From Anaerolineae bacterium (GTDB lineage: Bacteria > Chloroflexota > Anaerolineae > Aggregatilineales > Phototrophicaceae), in NCBI GenBank assembly GCA_022843745.1, contig JALHNB010000002.1, positions 62,001 through 126,000 on the forward strand: a DNA stretch of 64,000 nt, read 5' to 3'. The notes under the pieces are model-generated. The model saw only the letters and a program-made list of their open reading frames with translations. It was not told the origin of the DNA and did no database searches. The position numbers and the translations under genes are program-made. Positions 2,909 through 31,118 of this stretch are shown here, in pieces. Numbering within the stretch: position 1 is the stretch's first letter; each line of letters begins with the position of its first letter.

Positions 2909-2988
2909 GCGACTATTGTAAGCGCGTTATGAGCTAGAAAAATCGACGGGTCTTCGACGTTTTCCATGTGATGTTGTTTTGTAGGCTG

Positions 2989-3702: not shown

Positions 3703-3762
3703 ATCGCGTTTCTCTCAAAATAATCGCCACTTCTATCATACCCGATCATAGGATGTGCGACA

Positions 3763-4326
3763 TTAAGACTGAGCAGGCTGATACCAGAATGCTCCCGGAA
3801 AATCTGCTTCAACCGACTTTTTCTTACCACTCCACTCGGAAATATTGATGCGGTAGACGGCGGTGCGTGCCAGTTCTTCCTCGACAGGCGGGCGATAATC
3901 CTGCACTGCTTTCAAGTGTGGCGCATATTTGTCGAGCATCAATTGCAGCGCTCGTGTCGCCTCAACCGACTCTTCGACCACCGAGGCCACTCCGAACACG
4001 ATCACACTGGCATATTCGACGCTGAATTCCAGCGCGGTATCGGCAGGCAGCAGCCTTCCCATCTCCATCACACTGAAGCAAACACGCCCGTCTTCATCAA
4101 TATTGGCACGGGTACGTCCGACTCGCGCCGTATGGGTGTAAATGCAGTGGTTCAACTCGTCGTATACAAACAGGTTGCCATTGATGAAAGGCTGACCCTC
4201 GTAAACAGTTGCGAGCGTGCCAATTGCGGCACGGCGTAAAAAGTCACGAATCCAGCCTTCGTCCTCGACGGCGCGGTCACTACGGCGGGTCGCCGTTAAG
4301 GGCAGTGCGGCGTAATCTTTGGGCAT
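3763..4326 (-). CDS. NimA-like pyridoxamine 5'-phosphate oxidase family flavoprotein
   Basis: 187 residues from ATG 4326, chosen because an AGGAGG sits five bases upstream; an upstream in-frame start at 4362 would put this site inside the gene. The split beta-barrel FMN-binding fold is shown by FLRRAAIGTLATVYEGQPFI (residues about 27-46), then YDELNHCIYTHTARVGRTRANI and VCFSVMEMGR, as in the 5-nitroimidazole-resistance (NimA) group of the PNPOx family. A C-terminal segment with EWSGKKK is also typical (W-S-G-K). Family members reduce nitroaromatics or bind FMN/haem; the physiological substrate here is unknown. Divergent from the DUF4260 gene, with the tandem-dyad promoter between them, so a common regulator could act on both. 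Confidence 0.85.
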   Translation of the reverse strand: MPKDYAALPLTATRRSDRAVEDEGWIRDFLRRAAIGTLATVYEGQPFINGNLFVYDELNHCIYTHTARVGRTRANIDEDGRVCFSVMEMGRLLPADTALEFSVEYASVIVFGVASVVEESVEATRALQLMLDKYAPHLKAVQDYRPPVEEELARTAVYRINISEWSGKKKSVEADFPGAFWYQPAQS

Positions 4327-4432
4327 CATTTCCTCCTGATGTGAGCATACTTTTAGCATCATATAATGTGTGAAACCGCTTGTGACCTACCAGCAGAGTC
4401 CAATTTTCTAGCGATAAATGTTAGAGTCATAC

Positions 4433-4461
4433 TTGACAAAACTTCAAAAACTAACTATATT
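4433..4461 (+). promoter_or_regulatory. Sigma-70 type promoter of the DUF4260 gene
   Basis: Perfect -35 TTGACA at 4433-4438, a 17-base spacer, and -10 TATATT at 4456-4461. Transcription would begin near 4468, giving a leader of about 33 bases before ATG 4501. This is the best housekeeping promoter in the first 49 kb. The -10 box lies inside the first of two dyads (see the operator entry), so repression by steric hindrance is the natural reading. Confidence 0.8.
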
Positions 4462-4484
4462 AGTTTTATAGCTAATTGATTTAG
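4451..4484 (+). promoter_or_regulatory. Two phased CTAA-N5-TTAG dyads, candidate operator
   Basis: CTAACTATATTAG at 4451-4463 and CTAATTGATTTAG at 4472-4484. Both are inverted repeats of CTAA and TTAG separated by five bases; their centres are 21 bases apart, two turns of B-DNA, so two dimers would bind on the same face. The first covers the -10 box and the second covers the early transcribed region. The arrangement suits a TetR-, MarR- or PadR-type dimer, but no such regulator gene is in the window. Confidence 0.6.
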
Positions 4485-4500
4485 TTGGGAGATTAACATC

Positions 4501-4893
4501 ATGATCCAGACAGCAGTTCAAACCACAAACACTCGCACTTTAAGCCTGCCGAATATGATGCTGAGGGCAGAAGGGGCAGCGGTGCTGTTCGGTACGGTGG
4601 CGCTCTATGCCAATCAAAGCAGTGATTGGGTCGCGTTTATCCTGCTGCTGTTTGTGCCGGATGTCTCGGCGCTCGGCTATCTCATCAACCCGCGCATTGG
4701 TGCGCTCGGCTACAACATCGGTCATTTTTACGCCCTGCCAATCCTTTTGCTGGTAATCTCTTGGAGTTCTGGTTTGTCGGTTGGCATCCAACTCGCGCTC
4801 ATCTGGCTTGCCCACATCGGCATGGATCGCTTGATGGGTTACGGTCTGAAATATACGACTGAATTTAAAACCACTCATCTACAGCGCGTTTAA
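4501..4893 (+). CDS. DUF4260 domain-containing membrane protein
   Basis: 130 residues with four hydrophobic segments. Residues about 20-118 match the DUF4260 family: LRAEGAAVLFGTVALYA, FVPDVSALGYLINPRIGALG, YNIGHFYALPI and LIWLAHIGMDRLMGYGLKY, with the conserved Pro-Asp, Gly-His-Y and His-x-x-x-D-R-x-x-GYGLKY elements. Function is unknown. The gene has its own strong promoter overlapped by two dyads, and a GGGAG ribosome-binding site about ten bases before ATG. No partner regulator is adjacent. Likely an inducible small membrane protein. Confidence 0.85.
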   Translation: MIQTAVQTTNTRTLSLPNMMLRAEGAAVLFGTVALYANQSSDWVAFILLLFVPDVSALGYLINPRIGALGYNIGHFYALPILLLVISWSSGLSVGIQLALIWLAHIGMDRLMGYGLKYTTEFKTTHLQRV

Positions 4894-4927
4894 TGACCGT
4901 ATAGAGGTAGAGAATTGCGCCTCACAT

Positions 4928-5323
4928 TTGAAGCTGGATACAATCCTGTCATCAAATGATGTGGCGGTGTCTATGGATCAAGCGAAATTATGTGAGGCGA
5001 TTGGCATCCAGCAAGGCGGCTCATTTTTCATCATCGATCTTGGCTTCTTAAACTGGGGCCAGGAGATACGCTTTAACTGCCGTTATGAACCACCAGAATC
5101 CGGCGCTATCGTCTATTTTGAGATGCGCCTAAAAGACTGCCGTGATCTCCAATGGCGTGTCTACGCGCATCTCACCCTCCCAGAAGGTTCGATGCCACCG
5201 CCCGCTGCACTGGTCAATTTACGCCTCGGATCGAGCCAGCATCGTAAGCCATTTCAGATGTTAACGGACTCGTTCGGTATCACGATTCTCTACGGCGATC
5301 TCCTCATCCAGAAAATAGAGTGA
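4928..5323 (+). CDS. Hypothetical protein, unrecognised
   Basis: 131 residues from a TTG start at 4928, or 116 residues from ATG 4973; neither start has a strong ribosome-binding site. I do not recognise the family. The body looks like a soluble beta-rich domain (FFIIDLGFLNWGQEIRFNCRY, AIVYFEMRLKDCRDLQWRVYAHLTL, FQMLTDSFGITILYGDLLIQ) with no signal peptide or membrane segment. It lies 34 bases after the DUF4260 gene on the same strand and could be cotranscribed. The last 30 bases contain one copy of an imperfect 17-base direct repeat (5294-5310) whose other copy is at 5336-5352, just before the iterons of the sigma factor gene. Confidence 0.6.
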   Translation: MKLDTILSSNDVAVSMDQAKLCEAIGIQQGGSFFIIDLGFLNWGQEIRFNCRYEPPESGAIVYFEMRLKDCRDLQWRVYAHLTLPEGSMPPPAALVNLRLGSSQHRKPFQMLTDSFGITILYGDLLIQKIE

Positions 5324-5352
5324 TCTTATCACGCTGGCGATCCCCTCATTCA
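5294..5352 (+). repeat. Imperfect 17-bp direct repeat pair
   Basis: GGCGATCTCCTCATCCA at 5294-5310 and GGCGATCCCCTCATTCA at 5336-5352 differ at two positions and start 42 bases apart. The first copy is inside the end of the preceding gene; the second is in the spacer before the sigma-factor promoter region. Probably a small local duplication. Confidence 0.55.
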
Positions 5353-5364
5353 ACAAACCTCCTG

Positions 5365-5427
5365 ACGAGTTATGAACAGCCTGTAACGAGTTTTGAACAA
5401 TCCCTGACGAGTTTTGAACAACCTCTC
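5365..5427 (+). repeat. Three tandem 21-bp direct repeats upstream of the ECF sigma gene
   Basis: The core ACGAGTTWTGAACAR begins at 5365, 5386 and 5407, exactly 21 bases apart, so the copies lie on the same face of the helix. The first copy has ATG where the other two have TTG. The remaining six bases of each unit vary. The last copy merges into the likely promoter of the sigma factor. Such phased direct repeats usually bind an activator or repressor cooperatively. Confidence 0.75.
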
Positions 5428-5444
5428 CGAAACGTCCGTATAGT
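5415..5444 (+). promoter_or_regulatory. Candidate ECF-type promoter (autoregulatory)
   Basis: Inside the third repeat TGAACA (5415-5420) is followed after 16 bases by CGTA (5437-5440), the TGAAAC-N16-CGTA/CGTC geometry of ECF sigma promoters. The same bases also give TTGAAC (5414-5419) and TATAGT (5439-5444) with a 19-base spacer, too long for an unaided sigma-70 promoter. Either way transcription would start near 5450. Confidence 0.45.
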
Positions 5445-5468
5445 GGGATGAATAAGGAGAATAGCAGC

Positions 5469-6122
5469 GTGCAGCCAGCCCTACTACAGGAAGCGCCCAT
5501 GACAGAAAACACCGCTTCACAACTCGCGCAATTGAGCGAAGATGAACTTCTGCAACGCGCTCAGGCTGGCGATGATGAAGCATTCGGTGTTTTGCTGCTC
5601 AAGGTGGAATCACCTGTACGCCGGTTTATCTGGCGCTTGATTGGGACGCACGATGCTGAGGACGACATTGTTCAGGACGTATTTATCTCGCTCTATAACA
5701 ATCTGGATCGCATCGAGCCTGGACAGGGGCTTCGGCCTTATTTGTTCCGTATGGTGCGCAACCGCAGTTATGACGAACTGCGCAAACTGAGACGGTATGA
5801 GTTTGTGTCGATAGATGATGAGCCAGTCGAAACCTTTGCTTCGTTTAGCTCATTTGTTGACGAAGCCGACCAGCCTGAAGATGTAGCGCACTGGCTGCTG
5901 ATCCAGCTAGAAGTTCGCGAGGCGATGGAACGGCTGCCGGAATTGCAGCGGCAGGCACTCATCCTCTACTCAGAAGAAAACCTCTCCTATGCGGAAATCG
6001 CTGAGGCGATGGAAACCACGATTGGCACAGTGAAGTCGCGATTGTTTCACGCCAAAAAAACACTGCGCCGCCTACTGCGTCCCGATACTCTGCGGGCGCT
6101 GGACATGGAATTTGAAGAATAA
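5469..6122 (+). CDS. RNA polymerase sigma factor, ECF (sigma-70 family)
   Basis: About 217 residues. Region 2 runs from DEAFGVLLLKVESPVRRFIWRL through GTHDAEDDIVQDVFISLY and LRPYLFRMVRNRSYDELRK; region 4 is MERLPELQRQALILYSEEN, LSYAEIAEAMETTIGTVKSR and LFHAKKTLRRLL, a complete helix-turn-helix. A linker of about 35 acidic residues joins them. Three starts are possible: ATG 5448 (no ribosome-binding site and at the predicted transcription start), GTG 5469 (AAGGAGA nine bases upstream) and ATG 5499 (AGGAAG five bases upstream); I prefer 5469 or 5499. The gene is followed 18 bases later by a small protein and then by a pentapeptide-repeat protein, likely one operon. No classical zinc anti-sigma or membrane anti-sigma is next to it; the 79-residue product occupies that place. 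Confidence 0.92.
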   Translation: MQPALLQEAPMTENTASQLAQLSEDELLQRAQAGDDEAFGVLLLKVESPVRRFIWRLIGTHDAEDDIVQDVFISLYNNLDRIEPGQGLRPYLFRMVRNRSYDELRKLRRYEFVSIDDEPVETFASFSSFVDEADQPEDVAHWLLIQLEVREAMERLPELQRQALILYSEENLSYAEIAEAMETTIGTVKSRLFHAKKTLRRLLRPDTLRALDMEFEE

Positions 6123-6140
6123 CGAGATAACGAGGAGATT

Positions 6141-6380
6141 ATGATGTTTAATTATTGGAATGATGCAGCACACGCAGAAGCCCATCGTCAGCAGATTCAA
6201 CAGGAAGTTGATGAAATGCGTCTGGCTGATTCTGTACCCACAGAAAGTGGATTATCCCGCCGCCTGATCTCGGCTGCCGGGAGTGCGCTGGTCGCCGTTG
6301 GCACACGCTTGCAAGAGCAGCAAAATCGTAATGCTAAAACTCCGGCTTATATGCCGAGTATCGAAACCCTAAGTCACTAA
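6141..6380 (+). CDS. Small hypothetical protein downstream of ECF sigma factor
   Basis: 79 residues (or 78 from the second ATG at 6144, which has better spacing from GAGGAG). Predicted helical and soluble to weakly hydrophobic: a charged N-terminal half (AHAEAHRQQIQQEVDEMRLA) and a segment LISAAGSALVAVGTRLQEQQ that could be an amphipathic or membrane-associated helix. I recognise no family. Its position directly after the sigma factor suggests a regulatory partner, possibly an anti-sigma, but no anti-sigma domain is visible. The last nine codons and the stop lie within the first copy of a 31-base tandem repeat. Confidence 0.7.
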   Translation: MMFNYWNDAAHAEAHRQQIQQEVDEMRLADSVPTESGLSRRLISAAGSALVAVGTRLQEQQNRNAKTPAYMPSIETLSH

Positions 6381-6414
6381 AACGCCGAGCATCGAAACTT
6401 TAAGTCACTAAAAT
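6353..6414 (+). repeat. 31-bp tandem duplication across a stop codon
   Basis: Copy one 6353-6383 and copy two 6384-6414 share the pattern GCCGAGYATCGAAAC, two variable bases, then TAAGTCACTAAAA, differing at about four positions. The first copy includes the end of the preceding reading frame and its TAA; the second is untranslated in that frame because 31 is not a multiple of three. Confidence 0.8.
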
Positions 6415-6444
6415 CAATCTGGAATCATTAGAGGAGAAGAGACA

Positions 6445-7518
6445 ATGGACGAAAAAGAAATGCTGGCACTGCGCCAATTGCTCCCAGCACTCAAGGCACT
6501 GGCAAAATCAGTGGAACATGCGCTGTTGACCAACACCTATCAGGGTACAGGCGAGATGGCCGCTAAAAGCTATCGCAGCCTTCACAGCCGTATTTCCGAA
6601 CTTTTGCCAGAGGATTATTATGTCACGCAGGGGCTGGCGCTGGATATTTCGGAAGAAGCAACCGAACAGCAAAAAATCGCTCAGGTAAACCTGGCTGTCA
6701 GTCAGCTTGTGAATTACCTCGAAGGTCAGGTTCGCAGCCAGGGTTTCCCATTTGGCGGCGGTGCGCCCTGGGGTGGCGATATGGAAGATTTGAAGGATAT
6801 GACTCGCGGCTTGCGTGACCGTATCCTGGAGCAGACGAAACAAAGCATTCGCCGTGCGATGGCCGATATTGATGTCCAGATCAATATGGACGATGTGATG
6901 GGTAAATCCAAAGGCAAGCGCCGTGTGGTGATTACATCGGACGAGGAACTGGCTGGCGCTGATCTGAGTGGGCAGGATTTGAGCCACCGTAATTTCTCTG
7001 ACAAAGACCTGACGGGCGCAAATCTGAGTGGCAGTACATTGGATTTTGCCAATTTCTCCGACTCCAACCTGGAAGAAGCGAACCTGAGCGGGGCGAGTAT
7101 GCAGCAGGTCAATTTGTCAGATTGCAAATTGCGCTACGCCAACCTGAGTGGGGCGAATATGCCGGATGCGAACTTGTCAGACTGCGAATTGCAGAACGCT
7201 AATCTCAGCGGGGCGAATCTCGAACGAGTAAACCTCTCCGATAGTGACTTGCGTGAGGCTAATCTGGGCGGCGTACATGCGGAAGATGCGAATTTGCGCG
7301 ATGCTGACCTGCGCAATGCCAATCTGGGTGGCGCTAATCTCTCCCGTGCCAATCTGCGGGATGCTAATCTGCAAGGCGCGAACTTGCAGGATGCCAATTT
7401 GCAGGATGCGAACTTTCGAGATGTTGATCTGAAGGGCGCGACGCTGCCGGATGGCTCAACCTATGAGCGCGGTATGGACTTATCCCGGTTCGGCGCTCGC
7501 GGCAAGTTTGAGCGTTAG
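6445..7518 (+). CDS. Pentapeptide repeat protein
   Basis: 357 residues. The N-terminal part (1-165) is a helical, charged domain that I do not recognise, with a glycine-rich stretch near residues 99-112. Residues about 171-332 are some thirty tandem A(D/N)LXX pentapeptides (ANLSG, ANLRD, ANLQD, VNLSD), which fold as a right-handed quadrilateral beta-helix. There is a superimposed ten-residue periodicity (ANLSGxxLxx). A short tail ends MDLSRFGARGKFER. GAGGAGAAGAG before the ATG is a strong ribosome-binding site. Some pentapeptide proteins mimic DNA and shield gyrase, others are adaptors; nothing here decides. Likely in the operon of the ECF sigma factor. Repetition at DNA level creates long antisense frames that are artefacts. 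Confidence 0.92.
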   Translation: MDEKEMLALRQLLPALKALAKSVEHALLTNTYQGTGEMAAKSYRSLHSRISELLPEDYYVTQGLALDISEEATEQQKIAQVNLAVSQLVNYLEGQVRSQGFPFGGGAPWGGDMEDLKDMTRGLRDRILEQTKQSIRRAMADIDVQINMDDVMGKSKGKRRVVITSDEELAGADLSGQDLSHRNFSDKDLTGANLSGSTLDFANFSDSNLEEANLSGASMQQVNLSDCKLRYANLSGANMPDANLSDCELQNANLSGANLERVNLSDSDLREANLGGVHAEDANLRDADLRNANLGGANLSRANLRDANLQGANLQDANLQDANFRDVDLKGATLPDGSTYERGMDLSRFGARGKFER

Positions 7519-7529
7519 TTCGGGCTTCA

Positions 7530-9356
7530 CTACGAGTAGGGCATGGGTGACTTGTAGTAGAGCAGCAGGTATTGTTTCTCTGGGGGGACATTGTAGGGGC
7601 TGAATGTCCCGCCTTGCAATCCAAAGCGCTCATGCAGCAATGTCAGGGTCGCTGTATCGTCTTTTTCGACAAAAAAAGCATAATCCGTCCCGCCCCAGAT
7701 GATCGCGCCTGATGCGAAAGCCTCTGGTGTTGCGAAAACAAGCTCGACATCCAACCCCCAGAACTGGCTTAAAAAAATCGGCACAGGCGCGAAAATATCA
7801 GGATCATCCGTGACCAGATAAATTTTCGTCCCTGGCCGGAAACCCTGTGCGCGAAAAACAATATCTTGCTGATCGTGCGCTTCCGGCCTGATCTGTATGT
7901 TGTAGAGCGCGAGATGAGGGCCGAAATAATAGGCCACCTGTGCGATCCCCAGGATGCTCACAAAAATGGGCGTTATATATTTTCCGCGAATACGTGAGAT
8001 TCGAGCTAAAGCATCCAGCAAAGCCTTCACGCCGACAGCCATCAGGATCGCCAGCGCCGGAAATGAAACGACAAATCGTGCTGACCACGCATTATCGCTG
8101 ATGAGGCTGTTGCCGAGCGCGGTGAATAGCAGCCACAGCACCAGCAGGCTTCCGGCAACGGACCGTCGAAAAGCCATCAACAAACCTAAAACGAAAAATG
8201 GCAGCATAAACGGCAAAATCAACGCCGTATCACCGCCATAATAAAAATGGCTGTCATCGGGCAGGGTGACGAAGTGCTGAAGGGGCGGTGAAAGCTGGTT
8301 GCGCCAATAGAGTGCCAGCCGCCCCTCGTTTGCGCTGGAAAGCAGCAAATCTGTCCAATAACCAGTGTTCAAGCCCTGATTTCGCAGCCGCATGGTAAAC
8401 GGAATATCCCATGACGACAGCGTGTAATAGACAGGCGCACCGATGAGGATTGCCGCCAACGCCGCGATGAATAACCCCTTCAGCAATTGTTTTCCGTAGG
8501 GGCTGCTCTCAGACCCGCCCTTAATATTTCGACTTTGAGTACCTGATTGAGGTTGCCAAGCCAATGCGCCGATGAACGCCCACGCTAACCCCAACGCCGG
8601 GAACAACAGCCGTCCACCTTCGTAAAAATACTGCGTCAGGCCGATCATCACGCCACCGAGCGCGAAATTGATAGGTCGCCGGGTTTTAAATCCGCGTGCT
8701 AGAAATGCCAGCGCCAGCGTTCCGAACAGTGGGTCGGCAATATTGTTCATTCCCAGGCGGCTGAAATGAATGTGCGGTGGGAAAACGGCCAGCAGGAACG
8801 CTGCCAGCAGTGCCGTTTTGCGATCAAACAGCGTCTTTGCCAGCAGATAAACCGCCGCGACAGTCAGCACACCAAAAGCAGCGCTCACCATGCGCATCCC
8901 GATCAGATTTGCGCCGAAAATCGCGACTGACCCAGACTGCATGTAGGGGAAAATCCAGGTGAAGGCGGCAATATAGTTAAACGGCCCCAGCAAATTGATG
9001 CTCGGCTCTTTCCAAAGTCGCAGAATGCCCTCGACAAAATTGGTTTCATCGACGTAAAAATGGACGGCGTTTTCGAGATTCCAGGTTCTCTGTGCTGTCG
9101 CAATGAGGAGAATGATGATGAGGGTGAAATAGCTTCGAAAATCGCGTTTTGACAGGGTAGGTCTCAGACCTACTCCTACGGATAACTGCCTGCCGCCTAA
9201 CCCCCATGCCAGTAGGATACTCCCGCCCACCAGCAGCGCGAACTGTGCGTGATTCGTGCCGTGTATCAGCCAGGGGATGTCTAAGCGTTCGCCGTTGATC
9301 TCCGCCAGCGCTCCCAGGCACAGCACACCCGCTATCGTCGTGAGCCAGCGTATCAT
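7530..9356 (-). CDS. GT39-type (ArnT/PMT-like) membrane glycosyltransferase, paralogue 1
   Basis: 608 residues with about eleven hydrophobic segments and a soluble C-terminal periplasmic-side domain. The first extracytoplasmic loop carries HFYVDETNFVEGIL, the acidic pair characteristic of GT-C enzymes that use polyprenyl-phosphate sugars. The stretch ALFDRKTALLAAFLLAVFPP, then HFSRLGMNNIADPLFGTLAL and YFYEGGRLLFP are shared nearly verbatim with the next three genes. Compared with them it has two extra loops, around GGRQLSVGVGLRPTLSK and SGTQSRNIKGGSESSPYG, both coded by palindromic repeat-like DNA. Last gene of a four-gene minus-strand set; its ATG overlaps the stop of paralogue 2 (ATGA). Donor and acceptor are unknown; lipid, S-layer or protein glycosylation are possible. 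Confidence 0.85.
   Translation of the reverse strand: MIRWLTTIAGVLCLGALAEINGERLDIPWLIHGTNHAQFALLVGGSILLAWGLGGRQLSVGVGLRPTLSKRDFRSYFTLIIILLIATAQRTWNLENAVHFYVDETNFVEGILRLWKEPSINLLGPFNYIAAFTWIFPYMQSGSVAIFGANLIGMRMVSAAFGVLTVAAVYLLAKTLFDRKTALLAAFLLAVFPPHIHFSRLGMNNIADPLFGTLALAFLARGFKTRRPINFALGGVMIGLTQYFYEGGRLLFPALGLAWAFIGALAWQPQSGTQSRNIKGGSESSPYGKQLLKGLFIAALAAILIGAPVYYTLSSWDIPFTMRLRNQGLNTGYWTDLLLSSANEGRLALYWRNQLSPPLQHFVTLPDDSHFYYGGDTALILPFMLPFFVLGLLMAFRRSVAGSLLVLWLLFTALGNSLISDNAWSARFVVSFPALAILMAVGVKALLDALARISRIRGKYITPIFVSILGIAQVAYYFGPHLALYNIQIRPEAHDQQDIVFRAQGFRPGTKIYLVTDDPDIFAPVPIFLSQFWGLDVELVFATPEAFASGAIIWGGTDYAFFVEKDDTATLTLLHERFGLQGGTFSPYNVPPEKQYLLLYYKSPMPYS
8496..8520. repeat. Degenerate repeat-like element inside a coding sequence
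   Basis: GTAGGGGCTGCTCTCAGACC followed by CGCCC, resembling the GTAGGGG...GGTCTCAGACC...CCC type of dispersed element but with imperfect arms. It codes for the extra loop GGSESSPYG of glycosyltransferase paralogue 1. Confidence 0.4.
9157..9173. repeat. Palindromic dispersed-repeat-like element inside a coding sequence
   Basis: GTAGGTCT-C-AGACCTAC, an eight-base inverted repeat with a one-base centre, inside glycosyltransferase paralogue 1 where the other paralogues have no equivalent residues. It is followed by TCCTAC, a partial third arm. It codes for VGVGLRPTL on the minus strand. Confidence 0.6.

Positions 9357-21432: not shown

Positions 21433-21436
<4 letters not shown>
21128..21436 (-). 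CDS. Small two-helix membrane protein
   Basis: 102 residues. Two hydrophobic regions (FLFTNVIAPIAIWIALTLLPIII and FMFVLLCSLGITGLIALPITIAIIL) and a charged tail ending KRHESEDKHKHPQS. I recognise no family. Its ATG overlaps the stop of the ABC ATPase (ATGA), which supports real translation and coupling to the transporter operon. Its 3' 71 bases overlap the end of the DUF433 gene on the other strand, which is unusual for this otherwise tidy genome; one of the two C-termini may be shorter in vivo, but both frames look genuine. Confidence 0.6.
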
Positions 21437-22452
<1,016 letters not shown>

Positions 22453-22461
22453 GCCGAAGGT

Positions 22462-24033
22462 TTATCCCTTTAAATTATCCCGCCAGAGCAGAATGGCTAA
22501 CCCAACGCATGATAACCCAATCAGGATGAGTCCGGGCAGTCCGATCAAGGCCAACATGCCCGCCTCGGATGCCATCCAGATGCGGGTCGCCGGGGTGACA
22601 AAGCCGATGGGCGACAGCATCAGGGTTGTCGGCAGTTCTTTCATCGTGTTCAGAAAAACCAACGCCATACCCGCGATGATACTTGCCCAGGTGAGGGGAA
22701 TCGTCACGCGAAAAAGACGCTGCCAGGGACGCAAGCCCAGGCTTTGCGCTGTTTCATCAAAGGCGGGATTTACCCCAGCGAGGGCGCTTCCGGTTGCTGC
22801 GAGGCCGTAGGGTAGGAATCGTACCGTATAGCCCAAAATGAGCAGCGGCAGCGTTTGATACAGTGCTGGCATACTATTCGCGCCGAAAAATACGAGCGCC
22901 AAACCGATAACGATCCCCGGCAGCGCGTTACCGATGTAGGTCAGATTCACCAGTCGGCGACTCCAGTACGACGTGGTACGACGGGCGACAATCGCTAATG
23001 GCAGTGCGGCTAACGCAACGACTACTGCTGTCAGGACACTGGTGGTGACGGCGCTCCAACTAGCCTCACCGAGTTTCATGTCAATCGGGCTGATGACATG
23101 CGGATTTAGCGCCCATCCCAATAAAATGCCAATGGGTAAAAGTGTGCCGATACCGATCAGGACAGCGCAGAATCCGAACGCGGGAATCTGCCAGCGCCCC
23201 AGACGTAGTTTTTTTGTGATGGTTGTCGTGCCTTTTCCGGCGCGGTACGTCTGAGCTTTATGGGTGACGCGCCGTTCAAGCTGGACGAGCAGCAGCGTTA
23301 AGGCGACCAGCACCAGTGCCAGCAGCGCCGCGCGGCTGCGATCAAATGAACTGTTGTAGGTCACATAAATGGCGCGGGCGAAAGCGTTGTAACGCATCAC
23401 CATGACCGCACCAAAATCGCTAAGGGTATAAAGGGCTGTCAGGAGCGCTCCGGCGGCGATGGATGGACGCAGCGCGGGCAGAGTCACTCGCCAGAAAATT
23501 TGCCAGCGTGAACAGCCTAATGATTGTGCTGCTTCTTCCAGGCTGCGATCCATGCCCAGCAGAGCAGCGCGTACAGGCAGCACAAAATAGGGATAGGTGA
23601 AGATCGTAATAGCGAACGACGCGCCAAAAAAACCATAAATTTCTGGCAACCGCCGGATGCCAAGCGGCTCTAAAATTTGCTGGAGATAGCCTACCGGGCC
23701 AAAGGCCGCAACCAAAGTTAGTGCGCCAATATAAGATGGGATCACCATCGGCATGAGGCCGAGAATCAGCACAACACGGCGCATCGGAAGATTCGTGCGG
23801 GTGGTGATCCAGGCAAAAAGTGTCCCGATCACGGCTGACGCAATCACGACGGCAATCGTCAGGAGGATGCTGTTGCTGAGGATCGTCAGTGTTCGGGGTT
23901 GCAGCAGATAGTTAATGCCGTCGATGCCACTGGCGGATGCGCGAAGTACCAGATAAATCAGCGGCAGTGAGACGACAGCGATAATCAAAAAACTGATAAC
24001 TTTTAATCCGGTAAAGCGCGTTCGTATCGTCAT
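22462..24033 (-). CDS. fbpB: Iron(III)-type ABC transporter permease, fused double domain
   Basis: About 523 residues from ATG 24033; a GTG at 24060 would add nine residues and neither has a strong ribosome-binding site. Two homologous halves of six helices each. EEA motifs are clear in both: EEAAQSLGCSRWQIFWRVTL (about residue 180) and DETAQSLGLRPWQRLFRVTI (about 440), each followed by the family's LP.l/PLTWASI region. Fused BPD_transp_1 permeases of this type are the FbpB/ThiP/SfuB class that work as a single chain with two ATPase subunits. Lies between the binding protein and the ATPase; a strong hairpin in the upstream spacer probably lowers its expression relative to the binding protein. 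Confidence 0.87.
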   Translation of the reverse strand: MTIRTRFTGLKVISFLIIAVVSLPLIYLVLRASASGIDGINYLLQPRTLTILSNSILLTIAVVIASAVIGTLFAWITTRTNLPMRRVVLILGLMPMVIPSYIGALTLVAAFGPVGYLQQILEPLGIRRLPEIYGFFGASFAITIFTYPYFVLPVRAALLGMDRSLEEAAQSLGCSRWQIFWRVTLPALRPSIAAGALLTALYTLSDFGAVMVMRYNAFARAIYVTYNSSFDRSRAALLALVLVALTLLLVQLERRVTHKAQTYRAGKGTTTITKKLRLGRWQIPAFGFCAVLIGIGTLLPIGILLGWALNPHVISPIDMKLGEASWSAVTTSVLTAVVVALAALPLAIVARRTTSYWSRRLVNLTYIGNALPGIVIGLALVFFGANSMPALYQTLPLLILGYTVRFLPYGLAATGSALAGVNPAFDETAQSLGLRPWQRLFRVTIPLTWASIIAGMALVFLNTMKELPTTLMLSPIGFVTPATRIWMASEAGMLALIGLPGLILIGLSCVGLAILLWRDNLKG

Positions 24034-24128
24034 GACCAACAGCCCGTCAAGCAGGCACACTCAACCTCATAAAAAGAATAAAACTGACACATCCTGTGTA
24101 CCATCAACTGTCGCTATTTACAGAGCAA

Positions 24129-24165
24129 AACAGGCACAAGTACGCAAAGCGCACTTATACCTGTT
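24129..24165 (-). terminator. Intercistronic hairpin after the binding-protein gene (attenuator-like)
   Basis: AACAGG (24129-24134) pairs with CCTGTT (24160-24165), AAGT (24138-24141) with ACTT (24153-24156), and CGC-AAA-GCG caps the stem. On the minus strand it is followed by only a short T run, so partial termination or a protective 3' end for the binding-protein mRNA is more likely than full termination. Confidence 0.6.
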
Positions 24166-24200
24166 GCTGTTTTTATCGTAATTGAGCGAGGCGGATGCAC

Positions 24201-25223
24201 TTAATCCAGCGCACCACTCTCTTCAATCATTGTCAATGTGGTCTGCAAGTCATCCAGGTCACTCAGATCGATTTCTGGCACTTCGATGGTTTCCAGAGGT
24301 GTCAGCAAAGGATTGAGGATAATACCATCAATCACCGGGTATTCATAAGTCTGTGACGTAAAATATTGCTGCGCGACGGGGCTAAGGAGGAAAGCGACAA
24401 ATTGTTGGGCAGCTTCGGGTTGATCGGAGGTCGCTAAAACGCCCGCGCCTGCAATGTTAATCAGCGAACCGGGGTCTTTGCCAGGGAAGAAATGGTGTGC
24501 CAGCGGTGCTTCGGGGTTATCGGCAAGAATGCCGAACATATAGTAATGGTTGCTGATGCCCATCGGGATTTCGCCATTCGCGACTGCCAGATACAGATTA
24601 GTATTGTTGCTGCCAAAGCCGACGGTTTCATTAGCGACCATATCCGCCAGCCATTGGGCTGCGGCTTCTTCGCCCAGCAGAACGCGCAAAGCCGTGACTT
24701 GCGCCTGGAACGAGGCATTTTCTGGCGCCCAGCCTACCAAGCCTTTATAAACCGGATCGGTCAGATCGAGGATGGAAGCGGGCAGCTCGAGTCCAAGTTC
24801 TTCGACCAGTGCGGGATTATAGACTAACACACGTGCTCGTGCGCTTGTTCCGACCCACAATCCATCCGGTGAACGGAAAGCTGGCGCGACCTGATCGACA
24901 ATTTCGGCAGGAAGCGTCGCCAGCATATCAGCTTTTGCCAATGCGCCCAGTGCGCCCGCATCCTGACCATAATAAACATCGGCAGGGCTGTTTGCACCCT
25001 CTTCCAGAATTTGGTTGGCGACGGCAGCCGTATTCCCATAAACCACTTCTACCGGGATGCCCGTCGTTTCGGTGAACAATGTGATAATCGGCCCAACTAG
25101 GCTCTCGCCGCGCCCCGAATAAATCGTCAATGTTTCTGGTGTGGATTGCGCACTGATCGGCGCGACTGCCAGAACGACGCACGTGAGAAGGATGAGCAGA
25201 AAAATCATTCTAGAAAAACGCAT
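24201..25223 (-). CDS. fbpA: Iron(III)-type ABC transporter substrate-binding protein
   Basis: 340 residues. Signal peptide FLLILLTCVVLAVAPISAQ with cleavage near residue 26, and no lipobox Cys, so released or held by other means. TLTIYSGRGESLVGPIITLF, ADVYYGQDAGALGALAKADM and RARVLVYNPALVEEL match the FbpA/FutA class of periplasmic-binding-protein type II folds. Two adjacent tyrosines in MGISNHYYMF near residue 225 lie where the family's iron-ligating Tyr pair sits. AAGGAGA about ten bases before the ATG sets the start. First gene of the transporter operon. Phosphonate- or thiamine-type substrates cannot be strictly excluded. Confidence 0.85.
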   Translation of the reverse strand: MRFSRMIFLLILLTCVVLAVAPISAQSTPETLTIYSGRGESLVGPIITLFTETTGIPVEVVYGNTAAVANQILEEGANSPADVYYGQDAGALGALAKADMLATLPAEIVDQVAPAFRSPDGLWVGTSARARVLVYNPALVEELGLELPASILDLTDPVYKGLVGWAPENASFQAQVTALRVLLGEEAAAQWLADMVANETVGFGSNNTNLYLAVANGEIPMGISNHYYMFGILADNPEAPLAHHFFPGKDPGSLINIAGAGVLATSDQPEAAQQFVAFLLSPVAQQYFTSQTYEYPVIDGIILNPLLTPLETIEVPEIDLSDLDDLQTTLTMIEESGALD

Positions 25224-26523: not shown

Positions 26524-26997
26524 ATGGCAGCATGGTGGGGATCGCGGAACAAGGTTGACCCTCGCTTACAGGTCGAGGTTGAAGCGATGCGGGCGACGTT
26601 TGGCAATACATTTAAGCTGGTTGTGCCGCAGTTTGGCCTGTTATATTGGCAGGGTACGGTAGAGGTGAATTTATCGACGCTCAAGTCGCCGGAACACGTC
26701 CTGAAAATTGTTTACCCCAATGAGTATCCAAATCGTCCGGCGGAGGCTTATGTCCTCAAGCCGCATATTTACAGCGAAAAACATCAATACGAAGATGGTC
26801 AGCTTTGCCTGTTCAACCCCAAAGATGGTGAGCAGTATGGCTGGAATCCCGGTCAATCGACAGCCGTCACCATCAGCAAGTGGGCGATTGAATGGCTTTA
26901 TGCCTACTATACCTGGCGCGTGATCGGCGAATGGCCGGGTGTTGAGGAACGGATCAACCCCAAAACGCCGCTGTCCCCACGACGGCGAGGATTTTAA
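26524..26997 (+). CDS. E2 (ubiquitin-conjugating, UBC-fold) family protein
   Basis: 157 residues from ATG 26524, with GAGGAGA nine bases upstream (a TTG at 26506 is possible but unlikely). The UBC pattern is readable: strand pairs LLYWQGTVEVNLSTLKS and HVLKIVYPNEYPNRPAEAYV with the YPxxP turn, then a loop EKHQYEDGQLCLFNPKDG and helices KWAIEWLYAYYTW. Cys95 in DGQLCLF corresponds to the active-site cysteine of E2 enzymes; the usual HPN is HQY, as in other bacterial E2-like groups where a nearby His precedes DG-x-x-C. It would accept a ubiquitin-like protein from an E1 and pass it on. It begins an operon with a JAB protein and an E1/ThiF enzyme, which strongly supports the call. No ubiquitin-like gene is adjacent. 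Confidence 0.8.
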   Translation: MAAWWGSRNKVDPRLQVEVEAMRATFGNTFKLVVPQFGLLYWQGTVEVNLSTLKSPEHVLKIVYPNEYPNRPAEAYVLKPHIYSEKHQYEDGQLCLFNPKDGEQYGWNPGQSTAVTISKWAIEWLYAYYTWRVIGEWPGVEERINPKTPLSPRRRGF

Positions 26998-26999
26998 TT

Positions 27000-28058
27000 A
27001 TGATGCGAGCATTAAATGGGCGAAGTGTGCCTAATCTGGTGATGGCGCAGCGTGTTCTGAACAAGATGGCTGCGGCAGCGCAGCATTACATTGAAGATGA
27101 AACAGGCGAGGCGATGGTCGGGCTGGTTGTGCCGGGGAATCATACCAACGGCGTTCCTACCCTCTATGTACTGGATACGATCTCGCCGGACAGCAGCGCC
27201 GTGCGCCAGATGCACACCTTCCAGCAAGGCGACGAACTGCAATACGACATGTTCGAATGGCTCAATGAAAATTGGAGTCTGTATCGTGTAAAACGGATCA
27301 GTTATGCCGGAAAACAGCTGGCTGCCAAATGGGATGTCCCGCTTTCCCACCTCGGCGATTGGCACAAGCAGCCCGGTTTTATGATCCAGCCCAGCGGTGG
27401 CGACTTGATGACCGCGCTGAACATGCTCGATGACCCTGAAAACGGCTTCGATTTTTTGCTTGTCCCGATTGTAACGCTGGGACATCCCCCAACCATTGCG
27501 GGTGCGGGGGTCAACTTTTTGACGATGCCGCAGGGCGATGGGACAAATATGCGCGTCGATTTCTGGTATATCGACGGTAAATCGCGCCTGTTTCAGCCGA
27601 TCATCCCGGCGGTATATCCCGATCATCTGCTGCCGATGCTGCCGGATTACCCCTGGCATCTGGTTCATCCTGAAAATCTGAATCGCGAGTACAGCAAGCT
27701 GCAAAACGATGGATTGTTTACGTCCGTCGTGTTATGGGACGCGGATGACGAACCGCCGCTGGAAATCTGCCTCATGACTGCACGGGTGGGCGCGGATCGC
27801 ATTTTAATAATCATCACGCCCTGGGATTACCCCAAGCGAGCGCCGCAAGCACGGGTCGCCCCCTTCGTTCAGATGACTGACGATGATGACATGTATGAAA
27901 TTTTTGAGATGCTATGGGAACAGTCCAAACCTGTAGCTGATCCGCCGGGCTGGAAGTGGTCGTCAGAATCGGATTTGCTCACCTATGTTCGGGCTGTCGA
28001 GTCTGCGCTAGGGATTAAATCTGAGGCATCCAGTATGGAAAACAAGGAACAACCATGA
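27000..28058 (+). CDS. JAB/MPN-domain protein with altered metal site, plus C-terminal UBC/RWD-like region
   Basis: 352 residues. Residues 1-145 follow the prokaryotic JAB (Mov34/MPN/PAD-1) layout: ETGEAMVGLVVPG (Glu35 or Glu37), TLYVLDTISPDSS, then SHLGDWHKQPGFMIQPSGGD with His122, Ser132 and Asp135. The canonical motif is H-x-H-P...S-x-x-D; here the second His is Gln124 (codon CAG), so one zinc ligand is missing. Residues about 150-310 hold a second alpha/beta domain with LFTSVVLWDADDEPPLEI and IIITPWDYPKRAPQARV, which resembles the YPxxPP turn of a UBC/RWD fold without an obvious catalytic Cys. JAB proteins remove or process ubiquitin-like proteins. Overlaps the E1 gene by ATGA, three bases after the E2 stop. 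Confidence 0.75.
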   Translation: MMRALNGRSVPNLVMAQRVLNKMAAAAQHYIEDETGEAMVGLVVPGNHTNGVPTLYVLDTISPDSSAVRQMHTFQQGDELQYDMFEWLNENWSLYRVKRISYAGKQLAAKWDVPLSHLGDWHKQPGFMIQPSGGDLMTALNMLDDPENGFDFLLVPIVTLGHPPTIAGAGVNFLTMPQGDGTNMRVDFWYIDGKSRLFQPIIPAVYPDHLLPMLPDYPWHLVHPENLNREYSKLQNDGLFTSVVLWDADDEPPLEICLMTARVGADRILIIITPWDYPKRAPQARVAPFVQMTDDDDMYEIFEMLWEQSKPVADPPGWKWSSESDLLTYVRAVESALGIKSEASSMENKEQP

Positions 28059-28966
28059 GTTGGAATCGTGTGGAACGGCTCATCGGCTCGGATAATCTGG
28101 CGCGGTTGGCAGGCAAGCGCGTCGCGGTTGTCGGACTGGGATCGGGCGGCGGTGCAGTCGCATTGAATCTGGCGATGAGTGGCGTTGGCAATTTTATTCT
28201 GGTCGATGATGACGTGCTGGAAGAAAGCAACGTTGTGCGCCATGTCGCGGATCGACGCTATATCGGGCAGTCGAAAGCTGAGGCCGTCGCCGATCTGATT
28301 CGCCATCGGAACCCGAAAGCCACGATTGAGGTGCGTGTGGGGCGTGTCGAACAAAATATGGACGCGCTCGATCATATCGACATTCTGGTATCCGCTGTCG
28401 ATGGCGAAGGTCCAAAATATGCGCTGAATCAGGCGGCGCTGAATCGTACTCTGACCGCTGTCTACGCGGGTGTTTACGAGCGCGGCGAGGGTGGTGATGC
28501 TGTCGTGATTTATCCGTATGACGGGCCGTGTTATGCGTGCTGGGCGGCTGAACTGCGCGAGGGATTGACCATCACCAGTACGAATACGGGTGAACTGGAT
28601 TACGGCATGATCGGTCCGGAGGGTACATTGGAGGCCGAGCCGGGTTTATGGCTGCACGTCACGCGCGTGGCGACAGTTCAAACACACCTGATTCTCAATG
28701 AATTGTTAAAAGGCACTGACGTTTATGAGCCGATGCCGGGTAACACGGTTATACTGGCAAATAGTGCGCTCGAAATCGTCAATGGACAGGTCAGCCAGCC
28801 ACAGACAGCCGTTTGGGTCACGATTGATCGCGATCCTGAATGTCTGGTGTGCGGGGATAAACTGCGTAACCGCGCTGTCTTGACCGATGGACGCGAAGAA
28901 AGCGGTCTATCGTTGGCAGATTTGATGGATACGACAGGAATCGTATTGCAAGAGGACGAGGACTAA
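28055..28966 (+). CDS. E1/ThiF/MoeB-like adenylyltransferase
   Basis: 303 residues. The nucleotide-binding signature RVAVVGLGSGGGAVALNLA (22-40) and VDDDVLEESNVVRH (50-63, the DxD..xxSNxxR element) are complete, followed by QSKAEAVADLIRHRNP and VSAVDGEGPKYALNQAA. Zinc is probably held by Cys159/Cys162 (GPCYACW) and Cys263/Cys266 (ECLVCG). These are the only cysteines, so there is no candidate thioester Cys in the crossover loop around residues 168-190; activation without an E1 thioester, as in MoeB and ThiF, or a different nucleophile would be needed. Starts inside the stop of the JAB gene (ATGA) and ends one base before the next ATG: one tight operon. The fold call is secure, the partner is not known. 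Confidence 0.88.
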   Translation: MSWNRVERLIGSDNLARLAGKRVAVVGLGSGGGAVALNLAMSGVGNFILVDDDVLEESNVVRHVADRRYIGQSKAEAVADLIRHRNPKATIEVRVGRVEQNMDALDHIDILVSAVDGEGPKYALNQAALNRTLTAVYAGVYERGEGGDAVVIYPYDGPCYACWAAELREGLTITSTNTGELDYGMIGPEGTLEAEPGLWLHVTRVATVQTHLILNELLKGTDVYEPMPGNTVILANSALEIVNGQVSQPQTAVWVTIDRDPECLVCGDKLRNRAVLTDGREESGLSLADLMDTTGIVLQEDED

Positions 28967-28967
28967 C

Positions 28968-29300
28968 ATGGAAGATCAAAATAATATTCCGGTGAACAAC
29001 GAAGAGCCAGAGGCAGGTGGACAAACAGCAGTGCCTCCGCCTGCGCCGCCGGAAGCACCGCACCCCGAACCACCCGTAAGTGCCAGTAATGGTGGTTTTG
29101 ACGACGAGGTGATGACAGATCGGCTGGAACGGCTGGGCGGCGAACCCGCGCCAGTCATTACGCCGGAAGAATTTGCACGTTTGCAGCAGGAGGGACGGGT
29201 GAATATCGACTCGCGAGGCCGCGTGCGTACCACCCGCCGCAGCGATAACGATGCAGGTGTTTCGCTGCGCAAGCGCCGGGCGTGGTATGTCCACCAGTGA
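28968..29300 (+). CDS. Small disordered acidic/proline-rich protein in the E1-E2-JAB operon
   Basis: 110 residues. Residues 1-45 are rich in Pro, Glu, Ala and Gly and surely disordered. A helical patch follows (DDEVMTDRLERLGG, then TPEEFARLQQEGRVNIDSRG), and the end is basic (RVRTTRRSDN, SLRKRRAWYVHQ). No beta-grasp pattern and no C-terminal Gly-Gly, so it is not a recognisable ubiquitin-like protein even though it sits where such a gene might be. It begins one base after the E1 stop (AGGAC before the ATG) and overlaps the next gene by 14 bases. It could be an adaptor or a target of the conjugation enzymes; this is inference. Confidence 0.7.
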   Translation: MEDQNNIPVNNEEPEAGGQTAVPPPAPPEAPHPEPPVSASNGGFDDEVMTDRLERLGGEPAPVITPEEFARLQQEGRVNIDSRGRVRTTRRSDNDAGVSLRKRRAWYVHQ

Positions 29301-30477
29301 CCCAGGGCAGGCGCTCCGCCAGGCACTTGTCCAATCGCTCAAACAAAAAGGCGAGCTAACCGATTCCCTCATGGAGGCGGCGTTTCTGGCTGTGCCGCGT
29401 CATGCTTTCCTGCCGGATATTCCGCTGGAACAGGCTTACGCGGATGACGCGATTCCGGTGAAGCGTGATCCTGATGGCTCTGTCGTCAGCTCCGCCAGCC
29501 AGCCCACCATGATTGCGATGATGCTGCGGCAGCTTCGGCTGAGTCCGGGCGATAATGTGCTGGAAATTGGCGCGGGGACGGGCTATAACGCCGCCCTGAT
29601 GCAGCATATCGTCGGCGAAGAAGGCAATGTCACAACGCTTGAACTCGATAAAGACATGGTGCAGACCGCGCAGGCCAATTTGCAGCGTATTTCCAGCGGC
29701 GATCATATCCGTGTGGTTCACGCTGATGGTGCAGCCGGATATGCCCCGCGCGCATCCTATGATCGCATCATCGCCACCGTTGGCATCTGGGATATTCCAG
29801 TTGCCTGGGTCAAGCAGTTGAAGCCAAAGGGGATTATCGTCGCGCCGCTGTGGGTGGATGCCGGACAGGTGAGCGCGGCGTTTACGATCCAATCGGACAA
29901 TACGCTGTACAGCCCCAATAATCTGCCGTGTGGATTCATTCAATTACGTGGCGCGGCGGCGGGGCCTACTGTGATTCGGCGTGTGGGTAGTTCTTCGTTA
30001 GTCCTGATTTCTAACGACGTTGTTTCGATTGATATGGCGGCACTGCATTCATTATTTTCAGAAGATTTTGAGCAAAGTGTGCTGGATATTCGGCTGAAGT
30101 CTGGGGAATATACGACGGGTTTTCTGCCCTATCTGACATTAAACACCCCCAGAGGTACGACTTTCACGGCCTACACGATCACGACCAACGAACAAGCCTA
30201 TGGGATCAGCGGGCATGGTTTCGGTTTGTTGACTTCGGGCAGCGCGTGTTTTGTGCCGCTGGAAGGTCATGGCGAGGTGCATACATTTGGTGCGCCGGAT
30301 ACCCTCATGGCGCTGCAAGAATCGCTGGCGGCCTGGGATCGGGCTGGACGGCCCGGTGCTAAGGACGTTCGCCTGCGCATGATTCCAATCGAACAGATGA
30401 AACCTGCGATCAACACAGGAAAAGTATTTACTCGTGACGATCACTATCTGCACGTCTGGCAGGACATTGCGAAATGA
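29287..30477 (+). CDS. Protein-L-isoaspartate O-methyltransferase family protein with C-terminal extension
   Basis: 396 residues from ATG 29287, chosen because MSTSDPGQALRQALVQSLKQ aligns with the usual PCMT start; ATG 29251 is also in frame. Residues 20-215 are a PCMT domain: VPRHAFLPDIPLEQAYADDA, SSASQPTMIAMMLRQL, the SAM-binding VLEIGAGTGYNAALMQHI, VTTLELDKDMVQTAQ, then YDRIIATVGIWDIPVAWVKQ and LWVDAG. The enzyme methylates isoaspartate in damaged proteins. About 180 extra C-terminal residues form a beta-rich domain (TAYTITTNEQAYGISGHGFG, EVHTFGAPDTLMALQES) seen in some longer bacterial PCMT relatives. It overlaps its neighbours by 14 and 4 bases, so it is in the same operon as the E2-JAB-E1 genes, but this may only be convenience. 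Confidence 0.85.
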   Translation: MSTSDPGQALRQALVQSLKQKGELTDSLMEAAFLAVPRHAFLPDIPLEQAYADDAIPVKRDPDGSVVSSASQPTMIAMMLRQLRLSPGDNVLEIGAGTGYNAALMQHIVGEEGNVTTLELDKDMVQTAQANLQRISSGDHIRVVHADGAAGYAPRASYDRIIATVGIWDIPVAWVKQLKPKGIIVAPLWVDAGQVSAAFTIQSDNTLYSPNNLPCGFIQLRGAAAGPTVIRRVGSSSLVLISNDVVSIDMAALHSLFSEDFEQSVLDIRLKSGEYTTGFLPYLTLNTPRGTTFTAYTITTNEQAYGISGHGFGLLTSGSACFVPLEGHGEVHTFGAPDTLMALQESLAAWDRAGRPGAKDVRLRMIPIEQMKPAINTGKVFTRDDHYLHVWQDIAK

Positions 30478-31118
30478 TAACGCTTGACGCGGTGCGCACG
30501 GCTGTTCATCTGGTGGACTTTGATACGGTTGCGGCGCAGCGGCGCATGTTTCCCGGCTCGCGTCCGCTGGAAGCGACTAAAACCGAACGTTCGCGGCAGG
30601 CGGGTGTTCTGCTCCTGCTTTATCCCCATGCCAATGACTTGAATATCGTGCTGACGCGCCGGACAGAAACATTGCGCGGTCACAGTGGACAGATCAGCTT
30701 TCCCGGCGGCAGGCGCGACCCTTCTGACGATTCCTTCATCACGACAGCGCTGCGCGAAGCCTGTGAGGAACTGGGTATCTGCGATTCGGTAAATGTCGTC
30801 GGTGCTTTGACTCCTATTTATATCCCGCCCAGCGATTTCGAGGTTTTCCCGATTGTTGGTGCTCTGGATACGCCGCCCGTCTATCACCCAAATCCTGACG
30901 AAGTGGCGGAAGTTTTCGCGGTTTCGCTGGAGGAACTGCTGGACGAACGCCTGAAAATTGAGGAATATCGCGATTTTCAGGGGCAGCGGGTGCTCATTCC
31001 CTACTATGGCTTTCATGGTCACAAGGTCTGGGGCGCGACAGCCATCATGCTCAGTGAATTTGAGCAGCGTTTGCGCTTCGTACTGGAAAAAGAATCACGG
31101 TTGAAGACTCTGCGCTAG
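30474..31118 (+). CDS. Nudix hydrolase, CoA diphosphatase type
   Basis: 214 residues. The Nudix box is GGRRDPSDDSF...ALREACEELGI, with the REAxEELG core at about residues 98-106. Directly before it LTRRTETLRGHSGQISFPGG matches the NuCoA motif (L-T-x-R-x-x-x-L-R-x-H-x-G-Q-x-x-F-P-G-G) of coenzyme A pyrophosphatases, which split CoA into phosphopantetheine and 3',5'-ADP. Cytoplasmic. ATGA overlap with the PCMT gene. The end of the operon: the next 218 bases hold no gene, only a weak CTCACC...GGTGAG hairpin near 31186-31209 followed by T-rich sequence that may terminate transcription. Confidence 0.88.
   Translation: MITLDAVRTAVHLVDFDTVAAQRRMFPGSRPLEATKTERSRQAGVLLLLYPHANDLNIVLTRRTETLRGHSGQISFPGGRRDPSDDSFITTALREACEELGICDSVNVVGALTPIYIPPSDFEVFPIVGALDTPPVYHPNPDEVAEVFAVSLEELLDERLKIEEYRDFQGQRVLIPYYGFHGHKVWGATAIMLSEFEQRLRFVLEKESRLKTLR

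Follow-up and report, generated by a model that had tools for sequence, protein, structure and literature searches.

The window analysed here is a 64,000-nucleotide stretch of contig JALHNB010000002.1 (positions 62,001 to 126,000, forward strand) from an Anaerolineae bacterium of the order Aggregatilineales (Chloroflexota; assembly GCA_022843745.1), whose genome comprises 7.96 Mb in 117 contigs. It harbors an operon of four genes coding for an E2-like protein of the ubiquitin-conjugating (UBC) fold, a JAB protein, a ThiF/E1-type adenylating enzyme and a small protein (Table 1). The E2 and JAB genes are separated by a 2-base gap, JAB and E1 overlap by an ATGA, and a single base lies between E1 and the small protein gene. 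A first-pass annotation made by reading the letters had described this operon with its 2-base and ATGA spacing; the coordinates of the open reading frames (ORFs) agree, and all four lie where it placed them and on the same strand. The E2, JAB and E1 genes are co-stranded in 58 of 60 homologous loci, a count that omits a 61st locus, a Vibrio ThiF relative, and the two remaining loci are on contigs shorter than 5 kb. This recurrence argues that the operon is more than a chance arrangement. In one locus (L082), JAB and E1 are fused as a single ORF of 700 codons.

Table 1. Features of the operon, with positions in the window
Feature	Position	Strand	Basis and details
E2 (UBC-fold) gene	26524..26997	+	ORF, PADLOC and profile matches; 157 residues
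Cys95, putative catalytic Cys of E2	26806-26808	+	Cys in 67/67 sequences
JAB protein gene, two domains	27000..28058	+	ORF, PADLOC, predicted structure; 352 residues
JAMM/MPN domain of JAB, residues 6-212, motif E..HKQ..S..D	27015..27635	+	Structural matches, residue counts
C-terminal domain of JAB, residues 224-340, possibly RWD/UBC-like	27669..28019	+	Secondary-structure order, weak hhalign match (inferred)
E1/ThiF-type adenylating enzyme gene	28055..28966	+	Pfam ThiF; 303 residues, two CxxC pairs
Small protein gene, variable Pro-rich N-terminus and conserved C-terminal module	28968..29300	+	ORF, alignment, model; 110 residues
Conserved module of the small protein, residues 52-107, LGGEPAP..TPEEFARL..(hairpin)..GVSLRKRRAWY	29121..29288	+	22 invariant residues in 24 sequences

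Properties of the four proteins

The E2 protein matches the PADLOC E2 model (1.5e-17), and a profile built from 39 sequences matches entries of human UBE2L3, from 7.2e-6; Pfam gave only matches below its cut-off (RWD, 0.004; UQ_con, 0.14). Among 67 distinct sequences, Cys95 of the DGQLC motif is always Cys, and His87, Gly92, Asn98, Pro99 and Trp107 are also invariant. Both the UBE2L3 match and the invariance of Cys95 bear out the earlier recognition of a UBC-fold E2 with a DGxLC active-site Cys; judged from its sequence, the protein is a UBC-fold enzyme with an invariant Cys. Its identity to the window protein is 61-79% in 38 relatives. The E2 proteins of Bil systems carry a CEHH motif, that is a Cys followed by Glu at +6, His at +8 and His at +13, as described in passages of PMC11354881, whereas here +6 is Asp in 66 of the 67 sequences, +13 is Asn in all 67, and +8 is variable, with no His among the letters listed. 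No His was found in the invariant or nearly invariant columns after Cys95 in the alignment of relatives. A second, distant E2-like match (G008:C1:915548-915757, E 4e-11) is present in a genome of the host's family.

The E1 protein contains a Pfam ThiF domain (2.5e-32), which supports its assignment as a ThiF/E1-type enzyme. Of 71 sequences, 70-71 retain the GxGSGG loop, D51, N59, R62, K74, D116 and each of the two CxxC pairs, and 68 retain D53, so that by its residues the protein is a ThiF-type adenylating enzyme with the expected nucleotide-site residues and putative zinc Cys. No conserved Cys that could form a thioester lies outside the CxxC pairs in these 71 sequences; the sole other Cys column filled to at least 30% has Cys in 56 of them and Ala in the window. 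Since the E1 lacks a conserved Cys of its own, the adenylate would pass straight to E2. Identity to the window protein ranges from 54 to 79% among relatives.

The JAB protein matches the PADLOC JAB model (2.2e-8), and a Pfam scan gave no match. Its structure is predicted with high confidence (mean pLDDT 90.5), and residues 6-212 of the model match MPN/JAMM structures, for example those of BRISC (6h3c_B, Z 14.9), an archaeal Rpn11 homologue (6fju_A, Z 14.5) and Cap3 (9ild_A, Z 13.1). The model thus indicates a JAMM/MPN fold and upholds the JAB-type assignment of the first-pass annotation, which had missed two features. The first concerns the metal site. Glu34, Glu37, His122, Ser132 and Asp135 are invariant in 71 sequences, but the second metal His is replaced by Gln in 66 of them, including the window, and is kept in five (L071, L073, L082, L087 and L088); it is also present in the diverged member L144 and in the distant relative L145. 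The complete E, HxH, S, D motif of an active JAMM peptidase is therefore missing from the window protein, which has HxQ, and this suggests that in most members the peptidase activity is weak, altered or lost. The HxQ/HxH trait switches at least two times on a quick tree built from E2, JAB and E1, so that the Gln may reflect either a stable, working form of the site or a loss that occurred repeatedly. The second feature is an additional C-terminal domain (residues 224-340), predicted to consist of a helix, four strands and helices in this order. It is possibly RWD/UBC-like, given this fold order and a weak hhalign match to the operon's own E2 (E 0.003, with a probability of only 10%); the structural matches listed for the whole JAB are filled by the MPN domain, and none is listed for the C-terminal one. 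JAB relatives share 39-63% identity with the window protein.

The small protein has a bipartite organization. Its first ~50 residues are Pro-rich and dissimilar between members, whereas residues 52-107 contain 22 positions that are invariant in 24 aligned sequences, some of them altered in members outside this set (L144 and L175). Among the 56 codons of this module, 55 vary at the third position, 32 at the first and 24 at the second, and more than one codon is used at 21 of the 22 invariant residues, which indicates selection on a protein. The predicted model, of low confidence overall, has helices at residues 46-56 and 66-74 and a hairpin at 78-88, with no beta-grasp, and reaches a pLDDT of 84-87 in residues 61-90. 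No PDB fold match was found at E 0.001, and searches with Pfam, NCBIfam and PADLOC models gave nothing at E 1. The description of this protein as disordered thus holds for its variable, disordered-looking first half and fails for the conserved C-terminal module. Lysine is scarce: 12 of the 24 members have a single one, at position 102. Among 68 distinct cores, 67 carry Lys at this position and L175 carries Arg, which rules out a fully invariant Lys102; the count excludes members failing a text filter, among them L005, L144, L168 and L176, where reading the sequence showed Lys, and L165 is also outside it. Most members contain R-L-x-x-R-L-[GSA]-G, and ubiquitin ends in LRLRGG. The tail after AWY comprises 0-16 residues and varies in length and last residue among the 24 members, which do not show the Gly/Ala end of the CD-NTases conjugated in CBASS, as reported in parts of PMC10097602.

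Two RHS-like ORFs also carry the small protein's tail (GR[VI]..G.SLR.RRAWY), placed before a C-terminal domain (L198:3937-5070 in G303 and L197:6933-7574 in G005; E 9.9e-7 and 1.8e-4 with profile A1, and 2.1e-7 with A5 for L197). By eye, these tails resemble the small protein of their own lineage; in L197 the RHS-like core and the tail are in different frames. The RHS naming was also made by eye, and Pfam gave nothing on these ORFs. The tail may be a portable signal. Other matches of the A5 scan (E 0.01) were taken as chance, namely one interrupted by a stop (G263), two near the start of ORFs that are scaffold-like by eye (G265 and G260) and one in a long Pro/Ala-rich ORF (G201).

Distribution of the gene set and of its small protein

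The E2 is present in 135 of the 154 genomes of the host's order, and in 87 of the 90 good ones (completeness of 90% or more, contamination of 5% or less). Even sampling of the class gave matches in 25 of 298 genomes, 20 of them in the host's order and five weak (best E 4e-14), and even sampling of the phylum in 5 of 161, namely the host and four weak matches (best E 9.3e-18). Three of the latter (L146, L147 and L148) adjoin ORFs that by eye are nucleotidyltransferase-like, as in CBASS. The fourth, L145, belongs to another class of the phylum and has a cluster (1680-8670) coding for a JAB protein with HxH and further repeats, an E2, an E1, a 323-residue protein and a TPR-like protein; Pfam recognized no ubiquitin-like protein (UBL) among five proteins scanned in this cluster. 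The end of the 323-residue protein looks RWD-like by eye. On the tree of E2, JAB and E1, families f3, f4, f7 and f8 are apart from most of f1 (support 80), with L027 and L144 (both f1) as long branches outside and many forks open. Taken together, the near-universal presence in the order and the grouping by family make the gene set look core and vertically inherited.

This distribution bears on the idea that the operon is a variant of the Bil or CBASS anti-phage systems. Such a link is suggested by the matches to the PADLOC E1-E2, E2 and JAB models and by Cap3 being among the structural matches of JAB, but in contrast to CBASS the set is almost universal in the order and largely follows its families on the gene tree, and no effector was recognized in it, nor a CD-NTase or UBL. 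Moreover, scans of IMG/VR revealed no relative of the small protein's 31-residue tail or of E2 (profiles A5 and A3 gave five and three pattern-matching stretches, none confirmed), and phage and plasmid records contained none of the last 61 residues of the small protein (best E 2 and 0.1). A defence function of this type therefore has a very slight probability.

The small protein was found in 135 of the 154 genomes of the order, in 83 of the 90 good ones, and in a single genome of the 161 of the phylum sample, that of the host. In the 154 genomes, 130 have both E2 and the small protein, 14 have neither, and each occurs alone in five (Fisher's test, 4e-12). All five genomes with the small protein alone (G018, G216, G224, G245 and G260) are 74-84% complete. 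The small gene is followed by PCMT, which overlaps its end, then by NUDIX (PCMT and NUDIX span window positions 29251-31118) and Hsp20. Four of the five genomes with E2 alone (G003, G223, G249, G268 and G283) also lack NUDIX, which fits a missing stretch of assembly. As a control, the small protein and NUDIX occur together in 121 genomes, the former alone in 14, the latter alone in 15, and neither in four (p 0.24); the search for NUDIX used one protein, while profiles served for the others, so that NUDIX may have been missed too often. It is present in all 14 genomes that lack both E2 and the small protein, with a partial match only in G308. The presence of the small protein thus follows E2 and not the neighbouring NUDIX. 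The first-pass annotation had treated this protein as an afterthought; its co-occurrence with E2 instead makes it the best candidate for the missing partner of the enzymes.

In a first set of 41 genomes, 33 have both JAB and the small protein, six neither and two one alone. Among these 33, the two genes are linked within 5 kb in 23, lie at contig edges in three (G004, G022 and G027) and are apart in seven (G002, G006, G007, G010, G015, G017 and G030). The small core is within the fetched stretch in 34 of 60 GTDB loci and not in the other 26, where the genome survey suggests that the small gene sits elsewhere in the genome.

Search for a ubiquitin-like modifier

In agreement with the first-pass annotation, no UBL or CD-NTase was recognized in the four operon genes (Pfam, NCBIfam and PADLOC), nor in a Pfam scan of nine neighbouring genes of the window. 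Around 57 homologous loci, a scan confined to ORFs with 50-180 codons, free of overlap with longer ORFs and no more than 3 kb from the operon, yielded 108 further ORFs, and the largest group of alike ones covers four loci. When 98 representatives were compared with Pfam, no ubiquitin-like family was among the 25 of 38 families listed; one ORF matched DUF2283. The 60 largest clusters of ORFs up to 8 kb correspond to the operon genes, the small protein, PCMT, NUDIX and an ABC transporter, and also include antisense ORFs and sublineage genes. Finally, three loci with a gap between JAB and E1 (L053, L024 and L064) were read by eye and no hidden UBL was seen. The insertion of L053 (6283-6828) contains by eye a DUF2283-like ORF and another short ORF. 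The survey for a conserved beta-grasp gene that the annotation had proposed thus gave none among the short flanking ORFs, and its suggestion that the system attaches something else stands, as no UBL recurs or is recognized around these loci.

The annotation had also suggested that a UBL might be borrowed from elsewhere, which finds no support in two candidates. Prokaryotic conjugation systems with RING and YukD have reportedly been described by Burroughs and colleagues. YukD is missing from the host; 26 of the 154 genomes match it at E 0.001, 16 above cut-off. ThiS/MoaD proteins do not track E2, as ThiS-family genes are present in 152 of the 154 genomes, with or without E2. Another E1-like gene found in the host codes for what is by eye a MoeB-rhodanese protein, with which ThiS/MoaD proteins would likely be paired. 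More generally, a beta-grasp protein encoded elsewhere (ThiS/MoaD/SAMP-like, or too diverged) could be conjugated, with the small protein as an adaptor, an E3-like piece or the main target. With ThiS-family genes in nearly every genome a modifier would be at hand, and archaeal SAMPs serve both sulphur transfer and conjugation. On balance we consider this unlikely, given that these genes also occur in genomes without E2, that they probably have their own partner in the MoeB-rhodanese protein, and that YukD is missing at E 0.001 from 128 of the 154 genomes, the host among them.

Possible mechanism and relation to known systems

The reading that we tentatively favour, although doubts somewhat outweigh it, is that of an order-wide, vertically inherited E1-E2-JAMM system with the small protein, and not a beta-grasp modifier, as its dedicated client. 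E1 would adenylate a protein carboxylate, which would be transferred directly to Cys95 of E2, and E2 would form an amide bond. The small protein may dock through its GVSLRKRRAWY end and be itself joined, either as a donor, via its tail ending in WY or via a fragment released at the conserved L-[GSA]-G, or as an acceptor through Lys102; the JAMM protein, via its second domain, might hold or reverse the complex. A client without a beta-grasp fold has a precedent in the CD-NTase handled by Cap2, as presented in PMC10097602 and PMC12355090.

Several points weigh against a dedicated client of this kind. Fisher's test treats genomes as independent, and 12 of the 14 genomes with neither protein are in three families (f2, f5 and f6), so that few independent events underlie the co-occurrence. 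The N-terminal part of the small protein is not conserved, and its model is of low confidence (mean pLDDT 66). Its end is not fixed, which speaks against a plain C-terminal donor, and a donor via L-[GSA]-G would have to be cut by a JAMM protein in which one metal His is mostly missing; the Arg102 of L175 disfavours an acceptor through Lys102. Finally, in all seven genomes where the small gene is apart from JAB, it is beside PCMT and/or NUDIX, so that it may belong to them, and a tie to the repair of damaged proteins or nucleotides is possible. In the extreme, the small protein would be part of a PCMT-NUDIX repair cluster untied to the enzymes, a case that the adjacency in these E2-distant genomes favours. 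This is nevertheless highly improbable, as its presence follows E2 rather than NUDIX and as its gene lies directly after E1, with no PCMT or NUDIX found, in four related loci with some 7 kb of downstream sequence (L084, L085, L086 and L091).

The same variable C-terminus, together with the low confidence predicted for much of the small protein and the strong conservation of E2 itself, could indicate that E1 and E2 activate the C-terminus of another, unlinked non-UBL protein, comparable to Cap2 and CD-NTase, the small protein then serving just as a structural or regulatory subunit. We regard this as distinctly unlikely, no other gene tracking E2 being known, though none was sought genome-wide.

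A more far-reaching reading, in itself rather doubtful, would be a housekeeping conjugation pathway in which E1 and E2 act on a dedicated, largely disordered non-beta-grasp protein. Taken furthest, it would make the small protein resemble a Pup precursor, where a disordered modifier, in most members with R-L-x-x-R-L-[GSA]-G at its end, would be fused to the conserved module, which would act as a carrier keeping it on the enzymes. PafA, the Pup ligase, is of the glutamine-synthetase kind. Pup is likewise small and mainly disordered, as is this candidate modifier, and is joined by enzymes of another kind than E1/E2, according to PMC3511204.

The operon resembles several known systems in part. 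Like Cap2 and Cap3 of CBASS type II, as outlined in sections of PMC10097602, it combines E1 and E2 activities with a JAMM protein, but E1 and E2 are separate genes here and fused in CBASS, no CD-NTase or effector was recognized, and in contrast to Cap3 the JAB protein carries HxQ and an additional domain. Bil (BilABCD) similarly consists of four genes including E1, E2 and a JAMM protein; here no UBL gene (BilA) was recognized among the four and the E2 lacks the CEHH motif. Moreover, BilD has two adenylation halves and a Cys domain, in the description given in passages of PMC11354881, whereas the E1 of the window is a single 303-residue protein with neither. Operons 6a-6e of Iyer et al. 2006 also bring E1-like, E2-like and JAB genes together; in the passages of PMC1779556 that deal with them, 6d and 6e encode a Ub-like or poly-Ubl protein, a His following the Cys is conserved in the E2 of 6d, 6e includes inactive E2 folds that are RWD-like, and nothing like the small protein is named. 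The present operon differs from 6d, as portrayed there, in having no recognized UBL and no conserved His after the E2 Cys. MccB-type enzymes are ThiF-fold relatives of E1 that are matched here by sequence. MccB adenylates a non-UBL peptide and is not known to act with an E2 or JAMM partner.

No account of such a system in Chloroflexota was found among the open-access PMC papers listed; with subscription papers and preprints outside this scope, a description may exist in other publications. The operon would provide a concrete conjugation candidate with a named client in the core genome of a bacterial order rather than in sporadic defence. If the favoured reading is true, an E1-E2 cascade would be separated from both the ubiquitin fold and immunity, and the four-protein set is amenable to testing in E. 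coli.

Upstream of the operon, on the opposite strand, the window contains an ORF without a Pfam family and an ABC transporter set composed of an ATPase, a permease and a binding protein (21433-25223). In 22-27 of 61 sources the set is again found upstream of E2, showing conserved synteny.

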